Shown one piece after another: positions 1,709 through 21,431 of a DNA stretch of 22,721 bases (positions are counted from its first letter, which is position 1; every line of letters starts with the position of its first letter). The stretch lies in the IMG/VR virus record IMGVR_UViG_3300022748_000048, positions 1-22,721 of that record; one strand, written 5' to 3'. The notes beneath the pieces were generated by a model. The model did no database searches and was not told where the DNA came from. It saw only the letters and a program-made list of their open reading frames with translations. This stretch comes from a virus. Both the position numbers and the translations under genes were made by a program.

Positions 1709-4447
1709 TTAATCTTTCTTTTTAGGCTTATCATATTTATTTTTGTTTTCACGTGCAATCTGAAGAGCAACATCCATCTTTTCGCGTTCTACGCCCATCT
1801 TTTCTCTTTCTAAAGATAGTTTAGCTTGATTGGACTCATTCTTGTTTATCTCTTGTTCACGCTTAAAGCTCATTTGATCAGTATACTGTTGTTGTGATCT
1901 AATATCTTTTAATGCATCTTGATAATCAGATTGCTGATTCTGATTAATATCAAATCCAGATCCTCTACCAGCTGCATTAATTTCAGCTACTGTAATATCT
2001 TTTTGAATCATCTTATCATCACGATCAGCTTGAGCTTGAATCTCCATCTGCTTAGCTTTTTCTTGTGCAGCTAATTGCTCTTGTTGCATTTGTTGCTGAG
2101 CTTGTTGCTCTTGCTGCTTCAATTGATTAACCTTGTTCTCAGCCTCTTTTAATACACCAGTTAACTCTGCAATCGATTCAGACTTAATAATGTTTCCTAG
2201 GTCATATATCGAAGCCCCAGTGGTATTATTATTTAAAGCTAACTGCTTTAACTGATCCATTATTTGACGTTGATTAGTCTTTGTTGTGCAGAAGATATTT
2301 AACTCACGTAATAATAAGTCTGTTCCAGCCATTTGGAAGTTAACACGTTCATCAGTTGATGTAATGTATTGTAATCTAACAGATGGTTTCTTTGAATGAT
2401 AATACTGAGCTAAGTCAGTTCTCATCTCATGAACACGTGGCATTAAGTAATCACTGTGCTGTGTAAAGTAAACCTCTGTCTGAGCATAAGAAGCATTAAC
2501 TGCTTGCTCAATACCAGTTGCCGTTTGCTGTGCAATCTGCTGACCCATACGTTGAGGATTGATACCAATCGTTTCAAACGCTTGTGTTTTAAAGTGATTA
2601 GCCAACTGAATACGAGACATCAAACGATTTGTCTGCTCAAGGTTAAGAACTTGATAGTGCTGGAATGATAATGGATTCTCAGTGTTTGTAATCGTTGTAT
2701 CCAACGGTAACATCTGGAAGTTCTTCATTGCAACATATGCTTTCTCAAGATTGTTTTTACCCCAATCTTCACCCATTGAGTGACGAGGTAAAGCATTCTG
2801 ATCAAACATAATTACTGTTCCTAGTTCATCAACTAAGATATCTGCTATCTGATTGTTAACAATATTGTATCCAATCTGATAAGGTTTCATCATATCAACA
2901 AGAGATGTTGATCTTGTGTTTCTATCACCAAATACTGAACCTTCAACTGGTAACTTACATCCATAAAGTGATGAATCGCCTTTAAACTGGAATGGAAGAC
3001 GTGATGGTTTACCGCCATTTAAACCCATATAGATAGGATTAAGACCTCCTGGGTTATTCATGCCCCAAAATGCAGGACGATTAGGTCCAATCTTAATACC
3101 ACCCCATGTTTCGTTAATCCAGATCCAGTCAATATGCTCACCAAAGATTAATGTTTCTTTTGTTTTATTCTTTAGTGTAGTTGTATTATATAATGGTTTT
3201 TCAGTAATCTTGTATGACTCATCAACGATGTCTTGAATTACTTCACCCTCTTCTGTAATCTTTGTTAAGTGACCTAGTTTACGTTGTGATTTCCAATAGA
3301 TTGTTGATACACGCAATAAATGTGTCTTACCAAAGTCAACTGTATCTTCTGAATCTGCTAAGATCCATTCAACAATATCTCCTGTACCAAAGTGTGAATC
3401 ATATACTGATGTAAACTGACGGTATGCTAATGACGGCATTTTTGTATTCCACTCGTGTGAGCGAGTACCATCGTAATAAGATCCATCGTTTTGTTGTCCT
3501 TGTATAGCATAACCAGCTGCACGAACAGGATATAAAGTCTCAAGAGACTCCATTTGTTCTGCTGTCATCATCCAACCAAACTTGTCAATAACGTCTGACA
3601 CAGACATTAAATCGATCTTACCTACCCAGTTACCTTGTGATACATAACGAACATCTGGAGATTTATGATAGAAAGTAAGTAATGGGTTCCATAACTCTAG
3701 TTCATAATCATCTTCTCTCATCTGGAAGTGCCAGAACTCACGATCAGTAATTAAACTATCTCTAAATGCACGTTCTTCAAGTTCTTGCATCTTAAAACGT
3801 TCAACGTCAACGACCATCTGGTGAGATGCCCATTGCTCAATCATTGAACGATAATCTTTTTTAAAGAAGTCTTCGATGCCAGGAAGAGTCATTAAGTTTT
3901 CTTTACTTAATTGCTGTTGTGCCTCCTCTGACTCCATGTCCATTCCTGACTGCAACATTTGCTGCATCATCTTTTGCTGTGCTTCTCCAAGTAATACTTG
4001 TTCAACCATCGCACGTTTCTCTTCTAACATTTCGTTATAAGAAAGATCGTCGACTGCACGGAAAGTTATTTTGTTAACACGCTTTGCAAACTCTGAACAG
4101 AGTACGTTTATAACATTTGGAATGATAGGATAAAACTTTAACTCTAAAGCTGTTTGATCCTCTTGAGTTAACATATCAACGATATCAGACATGTCATTAC
4201 CGTCTTCAACGATGTAATCACTTTTGTCAATGATACCTTTTGCAAGCTTATAGTTCTTCATCAACCTACGCGAGTTTCTGCGTAGTTGTTTCATTCCCTG
4301 GAACTCAAGCCAGTCTAAGTTATGAGCTCTCCACTCATCGTCTTTGTCTTTTGCAGGTATAAACTGAATAGGCTGGGTTAACGTACCCATCTTGTTATTT
4401 TCAGTCTTTTTACCCGCCTTGGCGTCAAGGGCATTTATAATCTGCAT
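1709..4447 (-). CDS. Portal protein (crAss-like type)
   Basis: This 912-residue protein would form the dodecameric ring at the head vertex through which DNA is packaged. The N-terminal part contains the start of a portal-like fold (WLEFQGMKQLRRNSRRL), and the middle is rich in aromatic residues and Asn/Gly (around WGGIKIGPNRPAFWGMN). The last ~200 residues are a long Gln/Glu/Lys-rich helical region ending in lysines (KYDKPKKKD). This is long for a portal but usual for crAss-like phages. It is encoded after terminase and PhoH and before the scaffold-like gene, the expected place. An internal methionine (MGTLTQP) 20 residues in could be the true start, since no clear ribosome binding site separates the two. 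The identification rests on size, composition and gene order. Confidence 0.75.
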   Translation of the reverse strand: MQIINALDAKAGKKTENNKMGTLTQPIQFIPAKDKDDEWRAHNLDWLEFQGMKQLRRNSRRLMKNYKLAKGIIDKSDYIVEDGNDMSDIVDMLTQEDQTALELKFYPIIPNVINVLCSEFAKRVNKITFRAVDDLSYNEMLEEKRAMVEQVLLGEAQQKMMQQMLQSGMDMESEEAQQQLSKENLMTLPGIEDFFKKDYRSMIEQWASHQMVVDVERFKMQELEERAFRDSLITDREFWHFQMREDDYELELWNPLLTFYHKSPDVRYVSQGNWVGKIDLMSVSDVIDKFGWMMTAEQMESLETLYPVRAAGYAIQGQQNDGSYYDGTRSHEWNTKMPSLAYRQFTSVYDSHFGTGDIVEWILADSEDTVDFGKTHLLRVSTIYWKSQRKLGHLTKITEEGEVIQDIVDESYKITEKPLYNTTTLKNKTKETLIFGEHIDWIWINETWGGIKIGPNRPAFWGMNNPGGLNPIYMGLNGGKPSRLPFQFKGDSSLYGCKLPVEGSVFGDRNTRSTSLVDMMKPYQIGYNIVNNQIADILVDELGTVIMFDQNALPRHSMGEDWGKNNLEKAYVAMKNFQMLPLDTTITNTENPLSFQHYQVLNLEQTNRLMSRIQLANHFKTQAFETIGINPQRMGQQIAQQTATGIEQAVNASYAQTEVYFTQHSDYLMPRVHEMRTDLAQYYHSKKPSVRLQYITSTDERVNFQMAGTDLLLRELNIFCTTKTNQRQIMDQLKQLALNNNTTGASIYDLGNIIKSESIAELTGVLKEAENKVNQLKQQEQQAQQQMQQEQLAAQEKAKQMEIQAQADRDDKMIQKDITVAEINAAGRGSGFDINQNQQSDYQDALKDIRSQQQYTDQMSFKREQEINKNESNQAKLSLEREKMGVEREKMDVALQIARENKNKYDKPKKKD

Positions 4448-4458
4448 CTTTGAACTGT

Positions 4459-4857
4459 TTATTCTTGTGAATCTACTTTCTGTAGATAATCTTGTAATAT
4501 CTCGTCTGTTGTCATTTTACCACTTTGATCTCCACCATTAATACGTTGAGATAAAGTAGAAACTGTTCCCATACTATCAGTATATGTTACTGATCCAATA
4601 CCATGACCATTACTAGAAACATATGGACTAGTATATGGAGCAGTAGTATAAAAAAAAGGACTTGTACTTGGTGGAGTAATAGGACTTCTAACACCTGGTG
4701 GGTATTGTATAGAAGGTTTACTTTGTTCCACTATTTCCTCAGTATTTGATAATAAAAGCAACGCTTCTGTTAGATTGATTGCTTTTTCGTCAATAAGCCT
4801 TGATAACAACTCAATCTTATCTTTATGCTTTTGTTGCTGATTTGTTAGGTTTTCCAT
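4459..4857 (-). CDS. Small Pro/Ser/Tyr-rich protein, unknown
   Basis: I do not recognise this 132-residue protein. Residues 1-45 are helical and charged (MENLTNQQQKHKDKIELLSR). The middle is a disordered stretch rich in P, S, T and Y (PPSTSPFFYTTAPYTSPYVS), and the C-terminus is again helical and acidic (TTDEILQDYLQKVDSQE). Its start lies inside the 3' end of the PhoH-like gene (35-nt overlap) and it ends 11 nt before the portal gene, so it is co-expressed with the packaging genes. Two short helices joined by a flexible linker would suit an adaptor or minor virion protein, but this is a guess. Confidence 0.6.
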   Translation of the reverse strand: MENLTNQQQKHKDKIELLSRLIDEKAINLTEALLLLSNTEEIVEQSKPSIQYPPGVRSPITPPSTSPFFYTTAPYTSPYVSSNGHGIGSVTYTDSMGTVSTLSQRINGGDQSGKMTTDEILQDYLQKVDSQE

Positions 4858-8964: not shown

Positions 8965-8971
8965 GATACTG

Positions 8972-9046
8972 AGTAGGAAGAGGGATTCGAACCCCCGGCT
9001 TTACTGTTTTGCAAACAGGTACGTTGGACCACTCCGCCATTCCTAC
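8972..9046 (-). tRNA. tRNA-Cys (GCA)
   Basis: Read on the minus strand, this 75-nt gene folds as a normal cloverleaf. The acceptor stem GTAGGAA pairs with TTCCTAC; there is a short D arm with GTGGTC in the loop. The anticodon loop is TTGCAAA (anticodon GCA) on a CCTGT/ACAGT stem with one mismatch at its base. The T arm is GGGGG-TTCGAAT-CCCTC. The discriminator base is T, as expected for cysteine. CCA is not encoded. It lies 5 nt after the unusual Asp-type RNA at 9052-9193. Confidence 0.88.
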
Positions 9047-19936: not shown

Positions 19937-20245
19937 ATGGCAAAAAAACTTAACAGAGCTGCTGAAGAAACACCAAAAAGAGCTTATAACAAGAAACCAA
20001 AAGCTCCAGTTGAACAACAACTAAAAGATGAATCAAAGTGCACAAACTGTGTACCTCTTGATGTATTGAATCAGATATCATTACAGCACAATGCTGAGTC
20101 AGCAAGACGTATTGCATATCATTTAGAAAGAGTAAAAGAGACTACTGGTGAAACATTACCAGAAGACACTGCTTATGTTATTGCATTATCGCAAAGAGAG
20201 TTATTGTATAAGTTAAAGACTCATACAGCAGACAATATCTTATAA
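19937..20245 (+). CDS. Basic-tailed hypothetical protein
   Basis: This 102-residue protein has a basic, disordered N-terminus (MAKKLNRAAEETPKRAYNKK) and a helical rest (LDVLNQISLQHNAESARRIA) with a Cys pair (CTNC) at residues 35-38. It is unrecognised. It follows the HTH gene by 4 nt and is the last gene before structured block C; its basic tail would suit nucleic-acid binding. Confidence 0.6.
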   Translation: MAKKLNRAAEETPKRAYNKKPKAPVEQQLKDESKCTNCVPLDVLNQISLQHNAESARRIAYHLERVKETTGETLPEDTAYVIALSQRELLYKLKTHTADNIL

Positions 20246-20279
20246 AGGGTCCTTGCAAAAGATCTATATTTAAGATAGA

Positions 20280-20366
20280 GAGAAGATAGTATAGGGCATT
20301 ACGAGTAACTACTAAACGAGAAATGATGTAGTATACTAGACATGGGTTCGATTCCCATACTTCTTG
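20280..20366 (+). ncRNA. tRNA-like element with an abnormal 15-nt loop
   Basis: A perfect T arm (ATGGG-TTCGATT-CCCAT), a 6-bp acceptor stem (GAGAAG with CTTCTT) and a short D-like arm (GTA-TAGGGCAT-TAC) enclose a stem ACTAC (20308-20312)/GTAGT (20328-20332) with a 15-nt loop instead of 7. The anticodon cannot be read. The stretch from the T arm to the stem is 9 nt. It starts the run of RNA in block C. It could be an interrupted or degenerate tRNA. Confidence 0.4.
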
Positions 20367-20835
20367 CAAAACCAGTGACGACTGAGGTGTAATCCCTCGG
20401 TATAGGTATCCAAATATGTGTTTTAAGTGCGCGCTATAAGAACACTGAGGAAAGCGTTACATATAAACAGGGAGTAATTAACCCATCGTGAAAATGTAAT
20501 CATTAGATAGTAATATCTAGTCCTGATGTACAAACGAGTACGATAAACTGGTTTTATTTAGCTAAGTAGAGTAAAAGTAACTCGTGGGTGAGTAATCCGC
20601 TTACGTCGGAACCAAAAGACCAAGCAACAGGGGCAGTACCTGTCTTAGCTGCATAAAGAGAGATGAGTGAAGCTGTGTTTGGACTCTAGAAGAAAGGCAA
20701 AGGTTAGCCTCTAGTATAGCAGTAACCTTGAAAGACCCGAAGTCTCTCTTTATAGTATTAGTATGCCTATAGGGTATGCAATTGATTACTCTTTTAAGAA
20801 AGAGTCTGTTTAATCAGACAGAGATAAAACTGATT
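20367..20835 (+). ncRNA. Structured noncoding block C (large RNA between tRNA-like elements)
   Basis: No gene is seen in these ~470 nt, but there are perfect long helices in order. AAAACCAGT (20368-20376) pairs with ACTGGTTTT (20547-20555), enclosing ACTGAGG/CCTCGGT (20381-20401) and TAGATA-GTAA-TATCTA (20504-20519, a GNRA tetraloop). Next come AGCTAAG (20560-20566)/CTTAGCT (20644-20650) and ATAAAGAGAGA (20653-20663)/TCTCTCTTTAT (20743-20753), then GTATGCC/GGTATGC (20761-20779), ACTCTTT/AAAGAGT (20788-20805) and GTCTG/CAGAC near 20804-20819. Size, density of helices and association with tRNA-like units are like those of large phage RNAs such as GOLLD and ROOL, but I cannot match a known family. 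Confidence 0.6.
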
Positions 20836-20951
20836 TGTATGGTTTGCCGAGTGGGACTCGGGTGAAACTCAGTATGACTATCTATGATTGAGTGCACTCA
20901 TGATTAGAAAAAGCAATACACAGTAATAGGGTTCGATGCCCTTCCATGCAT
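20836..20951 (+). ncRNA. tRNA-like element with a 5-bp stem around a 17-nt loop
   Basis: Acceptor stem TGTATGG/CCATGCA (one G-T pair), a D-like arm (GCC/GGT stem with GAGTGGG in the loop, like Ser/Tyr tRNAs) and a T arm with TTCGATG in the loop (4 good pairs, AGGG/CCCT) enclose about 75 nt in which ACTCA/TGAGT can pair around a 17-nt loop. It contains a 12-bp palindrome (TGAGTGCACTCA). No convincing anticodon can be read. It lies directly after block C. Confidence 0.4.
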
Positions 20952-20954
20952 CTT

Positions 20955-21031
20955 GGACTTGTATCGCCTCGCACTCATAATGCGTTGAAAGCGTAGTTGG
21001 TTACATATAGGTTCGATCCCTATCTGGTCCA
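20955..21031 (+). tRNA. Met-type tRNA-like element (CAT) lacking a D arm
   Basis: Acceptor stem GGACTTG/CTGGTCC (one mismatch) and T arm ATAGG-TTCGATC-CCTAT are good. The anticodon arm CGCA-CTCATAA-TGCG has anticodon CAT at 20976-20978, in the same loop as tRNA-Met. Only about 8 nt lie between the acceptor and anticodon stems, so there is no room for a D arm. Instead a D-arm-like sequence (GCGTAGTTGGTTAC) lies between anticodon and T arms. Outer pairing TA(T)CGC with GCGTA may extend the anticodon stem. The order of arms is therefore abnormal. It may be a degenerate or permuted tRNA. Confidence 0.5.
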
Positions 21032-21174
21032 CAATAGTAACTTCAAGATACAAGCTAGTCAGTGTAAAACGCTTGTAGAACGAGAGATAATAAACATAGT
21101 TTGCATATGGCCACGAGATGCGTCAACTGAGCCATAATCGCTAATTGCATACTTGAACTCTCAACTATTACTCA
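21032..21174 (+). ncRNA. Structured tail of block C before the terminator
   Basis: No gene is seen. TACAAGC (21049-21055) pairs with GCTTGTA (21071-21077), GAGAG with CTCTC across about 21083-21162, and TATGGC with GCCATA near 21106-21136. The segment leads into the intrinsic terminator, so the RNA region seems to be transcribed as one unit. Confidence 0.45.
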
Positions 21175-21202
21175 ACCTGTATAAATAATACAGGTTTTTT
21201 TT
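21175..21202 (+). terminator. Strong intrinsic terminator at the end of the RNA region
   Basis: ACCTGTAT (21175-21182) pairs with ATACAGGT (21188-21195), a perfect 8-bp stem with a 5-nt loop, followed by eight T. It closes the RNA region and separates it from the gene at 21234. Confidence 0.85.
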
Positions 21203-21233
21203 GTTTATTTCTCACACTTAAACAGTTTAAACT

Positions 21234-21431
21234 ATGGCTGAAGAAAAACCCAGAAACCCATTTGGGATCTCGTACAATCAATGGATAGCAAGATTGAACG
21301 AAGAGATCGTAAAAGATCAAACAAAGTTGGCAGCAAAAAAGGATCATATCCCACTGTCACAAATCAACTCTCACTCACAATTAAAACTACACAGAAAACA
21401 TGTCACAGAAAGTATTAGCAAGAAGTCATAA
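21234..21431 (+). CDS. Small basic hypothetical protein
   Basis: This 65-residue basic protein has a helical middle (SYNQWIARLNEEIVKDQTKL) and ends in basic residues (LKLHRKHVTESISKKS). It is first after the terminator and its last 32 nt overlap the next gene in another frame. No family is recognised. Confidence 0.6.
   Translation: MAEEKPRNPFGISYNQWIARLNEEIVKDQTKLAAKKDHIPLSQINSHSQLKLHRKHVTESISKKS

Follow-up and report, generated by a model that had tools for sequence, protein, structure and literature searches.

An RNA gene cluster in a crAss-like phage

Our analyses have identified, in a 22,721-nt phage sequence (positions 1–22,721 of IMG/VR record IMGVR_UViG_3300022748_000048, referred to below as the window), a polycistronic cluster of RNA genes, a modified tRNA array, which is located on the + strand and ends at a terminator near 21200. 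From 5' to 3' the cluster consists of a first tRNA-like unit (tRNA-like 1), element B, a cloverleaf-like block C, element A, block E, a second tRNA-like unit (tRNA-like 2), a tRNA-Met-like unit, and block D, and we hold this block-by-block reading with high confidence. Elements A and B are distinct families of structured RNA with covarying helices. The phage is crAss-like (its portal protein is assigned to PHROG 6547 and its large terminase to PHROG 6681), and its terminase is ~25% identical to the terminases of crAss-like phages. An orthodox tRNA-Cys(GCA) is found elsewhere in the window (8971–9046, − strand).

Upstream of the RNA stretch lies a gene at 19937–20245 and downstream of it a gene at 21234–21431. 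The initial annotation of this DNA had described the stretch as gene-free, with a strong terminator and three T arms on one strand, and all of these features are borne out: the + strand contains no open reading frame of ≥50 amino acids (aa) between 20245 and 21234, the T arms are located near 20345, 20928, and 21010 (all +), and the intrinsic terminator of the cluster (21174–21204, +) is a 9-bp stem with a U tail that is retained in two relatives, L083 and L005. Five terminator-like sites were observed where 0.9 were expected.

Searches of the window with Rfam yielded one tRNA match above the tRNA cut-off of 29 bits (20280–20366, 35.0 bits), a second below it (20955–21031, 26.2 bits), and otherwise only plainly weak matches (E ≤ 10); no match was obtained for A, B, C, D, or E at either strict thresholds or E ≤ 10. 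The window gives no match to GOLLD (RF02032, a model of the conserved 3' half of this RNA) at the gathering threshold or at E ≤ 10, although the same search recovers GOLLD in two other phage sequences (L126 and L157), and it gives no match to the Rfam model of ROOL even at E 10, in agreement with the initial annotation, which could assign the region to neither family. The Rfam models for group I introns (detected where such an intron is present, in L170) and RNase P RNA are likewise unmatched in the window, which also has no tmRNA call from ARAGORN or Rfam and no tag frame.

The initial annotation had further read the region as one structured RNA locus of ~950 nt with embedded tRNA-like units. 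Structured noncoding RNA with embedded tRNA-like units in a phage is indeed present, but the view that it forms one molecule did not hold. A single large ornate RNA resembling GOLLD or ROOL would fit the size of the stretch, its freedom from genes, its phage origin, and its proximity to tRNAs, and GOLLD itself is present in the tRNA arrays of other phages that carry element A (L126 and L157). Against this reading, apart from the missing GOLLD and ROOL matches at E 10, the global fold of 965 nt has a z-score of only −1.33, with 3 of 20 shuffled sequences folding at least as well, and the blocks are reshuffled in the nearest relatives, which were located by means of the adjacent phosphoesterase gene. 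In L083 the sequence from block C to the terminator is collinear with the window at 93% identity, but the interval from tRNA-like 1 to block C is occupied by a different unit, resembling tRNA-Leu, and by a protein gene. L005 shows the succession A, tRNA-Leu, B, tRNA-Tyr, tRNA-like 2, tRNA-Met, D, and terminator, and tRNA-like 1 is found ~2.4 kb upstream of the other blocks, beyond protein genes. Elsewhere, in unrelated phages, A occurs alone and B occurs alone. A single RNA would not persist when its blocks are reordered and split by genes, whereas a row of RNA genes would, and on the basis of the fold and the reshuffling we have rejected the single large RNA, which we regard as extremely improbable.

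Element A, a family of small pseudoknotted RNAs

Element A (20655–20751, +) is a distinct structured RNA family of ~95–130 nt whose core is held by a pseudoknot. The copy in the window scores 59.9 bits (E 7e-13) with R1, a covariance model that was built from other phages with the window excluded. Members of the family are of two structural types that share one common core. The 5' part of this core comprises the stem P1, the segment AGUGAAG, and the stem P2, which starts with CUG, ends with CAG, and usually has a UA bulge; its 3' part comprises the hairpin P4 with ARGGUUW in its loop, the segment WAACCUU, and GAAAGACCCGAA, after which P1 closes. The window has P1, P2, P4, and the pseudoknot together with GUGAAGCUG, the loop ARGGUUW, and CAGWAACCUUGAAAGACC. 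In its copy the P1 5' strand AAAGAGAGA (20655–20663, +) pairs with the 3' strand TCTCTCTTT (20743–20751, +), and P1 covaries in A1; the pseudoknot is formed by AAGGTTA in the hairpin loop (20700–20706, +) and TAACCTT (20723–20729, +), the latter being followed by the conserved GAAAGACCCGAA. The conserved GAAAGACCC apparently shares 9 bases with 23S rRNA near the peptidyl transferase centre, an identity which we take to be plausibly due to chance and have set aside.

The structure of the type-I members (n = 29), including the pseudoknot, is paired in 95.2% of cells, compared with 83.0% in shuffled alignments and 34.9–51.4% in slid registers, and both sides have changed in 14 of its 24 pairs. 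Covariation over the whole structure, uncorrected for relatedness, exceeds nearly all of 500 shuffles per measure and all of the slid registers. The closing pair of the pseudoknot is U-A in 26 and A-U in 26 of 52 distinct sequences (both types and permuted copies, uncorrected for relatedness), with no mismatch. Rfam gave no convincing match over A in five representative loci at the gathering threshold or in three members at E ≤ 10.

The search pattern CAGNAACCTTGAAAGACC, derived from a match of 27 bp to Cellulophaga phage phi14:2, is found in 76 IMG/VR stretches but in only six places in 257 Gb of cellular genomes, and these six score just 14.8–25 bits with R1. More than 50 distinct copies of A are present in phage contigs; eight chance-looking matches to the pattern (viz. 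L109, L123, L147, L154, L168, L173, L176, and L179) were omitted from the statistics. BLAST against named phages found A in phi14:2 only. In host chromosomes, no copy of A was detected among 395 Bacteroidota genomes, a weak negative obtained with stricter filters and no positive control. An origin of A as a piece of the host tmRNA was considered and rejected, A being absent from 12 Bacteroidota tmRNA loci.

A tRNA is located within 500 nt of 27 of the 53 distinct A loci (background 18%), the tRNAs near A lie on the same strand in 143 cases and on the opposite strand in 3, and at many loci the gap from A to the next tRNA is 3–10 nt. At about half of the A loci ARAGORN finds no tRNA in the vicinity, and these copies have the appearance of stand-alone genes, which indicates that A does not need tRNA processing. 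In several of these stand-alone copies a T run follows P1 (or P2 in permuted copies), and hence the closing stem of A may double as a terminator. No neighbouring gene is common to most A loci, beyond sets of near relatives such as 9 loci with a QueC-like gene, and this favours a trans-acting RNA over an RNA bound by a cognate protein encoded next to it. In 8–9 related phages (L128, L156, and others) genes for QueC-like (queuosine pathway) and thioredoxin-like proteins are located ~1 kb upstream of A. GOLLD (257 bits) occurs in the same tRNA array as A at L157:1946–2357 (−) and L126:758–1169 (−), ~800 nt downstream with tRNAs between. L119 and L135 contain the conserved 3' half of A, but no upstream ARGGTTW was identified as its pseudoknot partner, possibly reflecting a further permutation or a degraded copy.

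Circular permutation of element A and its presence in phage tmRNA

Circularly permuted copies of A are present at no fewer than five loci (viz. L111, L140, which is phi14:2, L145/L149, L170, and L178). Their order is P4, the P2 3' strand, the pseudoknot strand, CCCGAA, a self-looped P1, GUGAAGCUG, and the P2 5' strand; L145 has GUGAAACUG in place of GUGAAGCUG. The permuted P2 stem is 11 bp long in phi14:2 (shuffle p ~0.005) and 10 bp long in L178 (p ~0.006). Most of the permuted P1 stems are individually non-significant, and those of L111, L140, and L145 are found exactly at the site that the core predicts.

In phi14:2 the entire permuted A lies within an ARAGORN-predicted tmRNA (4031–4500), between the tag frame and the 3' tRNA-like part. 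The L170 locus, for which ARAGORN makes no call, resembles by eye the phi14:2 tmRNA, including the tag region. ARAGORN gives the tag of the phi14:2 tmRNA as GSSVQKLAMVA, and both of these tmRNAs apparently have an overlong tag-like frame (MxVVHNIL...MxA) compared with a tag of ~10 residues. A group I intron (82.8 bits) is located at L170:785–1010, just downstream of the permuted A and apparently in the T loop of the phage tmRNA.

Permuted forms of natural RNAs have so far been reported mainly for the hammerhead and twister ribozymes, 5S rRNA, and group II introns, in addition to genes whose transcripts are re-processed (PMC10085705). We tentatively suggest that A may be a new naturally circularly permuted RNA class, possibly catalytic, that phages would employ both free, within tRNA arrays, and inside their tmRNAs, where it would be an internal domain in place of part of the pseudoknot region, although we place this somewhat short of probable. 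The existence of the permutations also suggests the main rival for A, namely a self-cleaving ribozyme that cuts the transcripts of tRNA arrays and, in its permuted form, the phage tmRNA. Its compact conserved core, pseudoknot, and invariant unpaired segments, its two circular permutations (a property mainly of the RNAs just named; PMC10085705), and its position 3–10 nt ahead of tRNAs would all suit a ribozyme. We nevertheless consider this reading unlikely: known ribozyme models in Rfam are all unmatched by A, cutting within the tmRNA copy would part the tag from the 3' end, and the stand-alone copies have their own U-tracts at the end and would gain little from self-cleavage.

Element B, a second structured RNA family

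Element B (20367–20557, +) is a distinct structured RNA family of ~190 nt with covarying helices, closed by AAAACCAGT/ACTGGTTTT. Its covariance model, R2, has nine helices and was built from 10 sequences including the window; all nine are found in the window, which scores 173 bits with this model that it helped to build, near the low end of the 165–213 bits of the 25 distinct aligned members. In the model-fitted alignment 97.2% of cells are paired, compared with 87.4% after shuffling, and both sides have changed in 20 of 45 pairs (uncorrected for relatedness); the MAFFT alignment of the ten sequences, from which the predicted structure was derived, gives 96.7% paired cells and also 20 such pairs. 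Members of B are more alike than members of A. The ordered helices that the initial annotation had listed do exist, and covariation backs the ones in blocks A and B; the search for covarying pairs in homologues that it had proposed succeeded for these two blocks.

The pattern GGGAGTAATTAACCCANNNNGAAAATG is found in 11 IMG/VR stretches, and a looser pattern in 31, of which five are unrelated sequence without tRNAs. Nearly all copies of B belong to tRNA arrays, where a tRNA-Thr frequently precedes them by ~17 nt. A and B have been found together only in the group to which the window belongs. B has no match in Rfam and was found in none of the named phages by BLAST. At L238:4228–4421 a copy of B directly adjoins a tmRNA gene.

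tRNA-like units and blocks C, D, and E

The first tRNA-like unit (20280–20366, +; 35.0 bits with the Rfam tRNA model, above the cut-off for a cloverleaf) has an acceptor stem, a D-like arm, and a T arm, while its anticodon arm is replaced by a hairpin (TAAACGAGAAATGAT) with a loop of ~15 nt instead of the 7 nt of an anticodon loop. ARAGORN calls this unit only with a 17-nt intron in the anticodon loop or with a relaxed score. Its T stem is ATGGG/CCCAT in the window, ACAGG/CCTGT in L083, and ACACG/CGTGT in L005, and the stem ACTAC/GTAGT of its hairpin corresponds to ACTGA/TCAGT in the alignment of relatives. The second tRNA-like unit (20836–20951, +) has the acceptor stem TGTATGG/CCATGCA, the T arm TAGGGTTCGATGCCCTT, and a long insert replacing the anticodon arm; in L005 its acceptor stem shows the compensatory form GTAGAGG/CCTCCAC. 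In both units compensatory changes have maintained the acceptor stem, the T stem, or the two together, and the anticodon regions are abnormal. Genes resembling tRNA-Leu, with normal-looking D and T arms and a long insert replacing the anticodon arm, are also found at L083:7146–7266 and L164:4485–4620.

The third unit (20955–21031, +) is a rearranged tRNA-Met(CAU)-like sequence which, at 26.2 bits, misses the Rfam cloverleaf cut-off of 29 bits. The anticodon loop CTCATAA is kept and the D arm is displaced, a D-arm-like sequence coming after the anticodon arm. Orthodox tRNA-Met(CAT) genes are present at the corresponding place in L083 and L005, and the rearrangement could be due to evolution or to an assembly fault.

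That only one tRNA reaches the Rfam cut-off and that the tRNA-Met is rearranged could be taken to indicate a decaying tRNA array with helices present by chance. We consider this very unlikely for the region: it is contradicted for A and B, which covary strongly and recur in distant phages, and the compensatory changes in the stems of the tRNA-like units speak against it as well. Decay is possible for the tRNA-Met-like unit.

Block C (20559–20649, +; RNAfold z −2.0) is cloverleaf-like, with the stem TAGCTAAG/CTTAGCT(G), D-like and anticodon-like arms, and a T-arm-like hairpin (ACAGG-GGCAGTA-CCTGT) without a TTCGA loop. Block E (20752–20835, +) contains the hairpins ACTCTTT..AAAGAGT and CTGTTTAATCAGACAG and is conserved in the alignment with L083 and L005. 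Block D (21034–21166, +) is a conserved non-tRNA sequence with a possible pseudoknot (TTCAAG/CTTGAA with GAGAG/CTCTC), and its pairs vary too little among L003, L083, and L005 for covariation to be assessed. Conservation of D and E is limited to near relatives. Block C and block D were rejected as widespread families, the pattern for C occurring only in the close relative L153/L083 and D being found only in L003, L083, and L005.

Possible roles of the RNA cluster

The location of A and B among tRNA genes and in or beside tmRNA is the evidence on which a role can be proposed, and it suggests, tentatively, that both elements may act on translation, a reading that we rank as possible and somewhat less than probable. 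A and B would share transcripts with the tRNAs and would be either excised by tRNA end-trimming enzymes or terminated by a U-tailed stem of their own; during infection these stably folded RNAs would then act in trans on the machinery of translation. As for the tRNA-like units that lack a normal anticodon arm, these would be signals for processing and might also be decoys of factors that bind tRNA. Taken as a whole, the reading of the cluster as an RNA gene array together with this processing and trans role is one to which we give not quite even chances.

An alternative is that the decoys are the main function, the tRNA-like units without proper anticodon arms titrating a factor that binds tRNA or tmRNA (for example SmpB or a defence nuclease), with an accessory part for A and B. 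The T and acceptor stems held by compensatory changes beside abnormal anticodon regions would be expected of such decoys, related long-insert tRNA-Leu-like units are present in L083 and L164, and there is a precedent in a phage tmRNA of which only the tRNA-like domain is left; such a molecule inhibits tmRNA, perhaps by titration of SmpB (PMC4131195). This alternative leaves unexplained why other phages have A and B next to normal tRNAs but no such units, and we consider it rather doubtful.

Relationship to known RNA systems

Structured RNAs of phage tRNA arrays are a kind already known from GOLLD and ROOL. Like A and B, GOLLD (RF02032) and ROOL are structured noncoding RNAs of phages without assigned function, often near tRNA islands (PMC12286853), but each of those two is one large, cage-forming RNA, whereas A (~95–130 nt) and B (~190 nt) are small RNAs that resemble them neither in sequence nor in structure and are unmatched by their models. 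Two likenesses link the cluster to tmRNA (RF00023), viz. the permuted A within the phi14:2 tmRNA and the absence of normal anticodon arms in the tRNA-like units of the window, as in the tRNA-like domain of tmRNA; the window differs in having no tag frame or tmRNA call, and the 12 tmRNA loci from the host phylum lack A. With the hammerhead and twister ribozymes A shares a compact conserved core that occurs in circular permutations (PMC10085705), but it matches no ribozyme model. As in other phage tRNA arrays, the tRNA genes form a same-strand row with short spacers, but the tRNA units of the window are mostly abnormal and structured RNAs are interleaved with them.

Families A and B were found neither in Rfam 15 nor in the literature searched, a search that lay outside most subscription journals and supplements, and they appear to be new, as does the permuted A embedded in tmRNA. 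Phage tRNA arrays are usually read as codon supply; those described here also carry recurrent, strongly conserved structured RNAs that are absent from Rfam. The two permutations and the tmRNA-internal form of A are shared by few natural RNA classes and make its structure and activity directly testable. Both families would also help to annotate many large phage genomes where such stretches appear empty or contain doubtful small open reading frames; in phi14:2, for instance, the tmRNA is covered by annotated hypothetical proteins.
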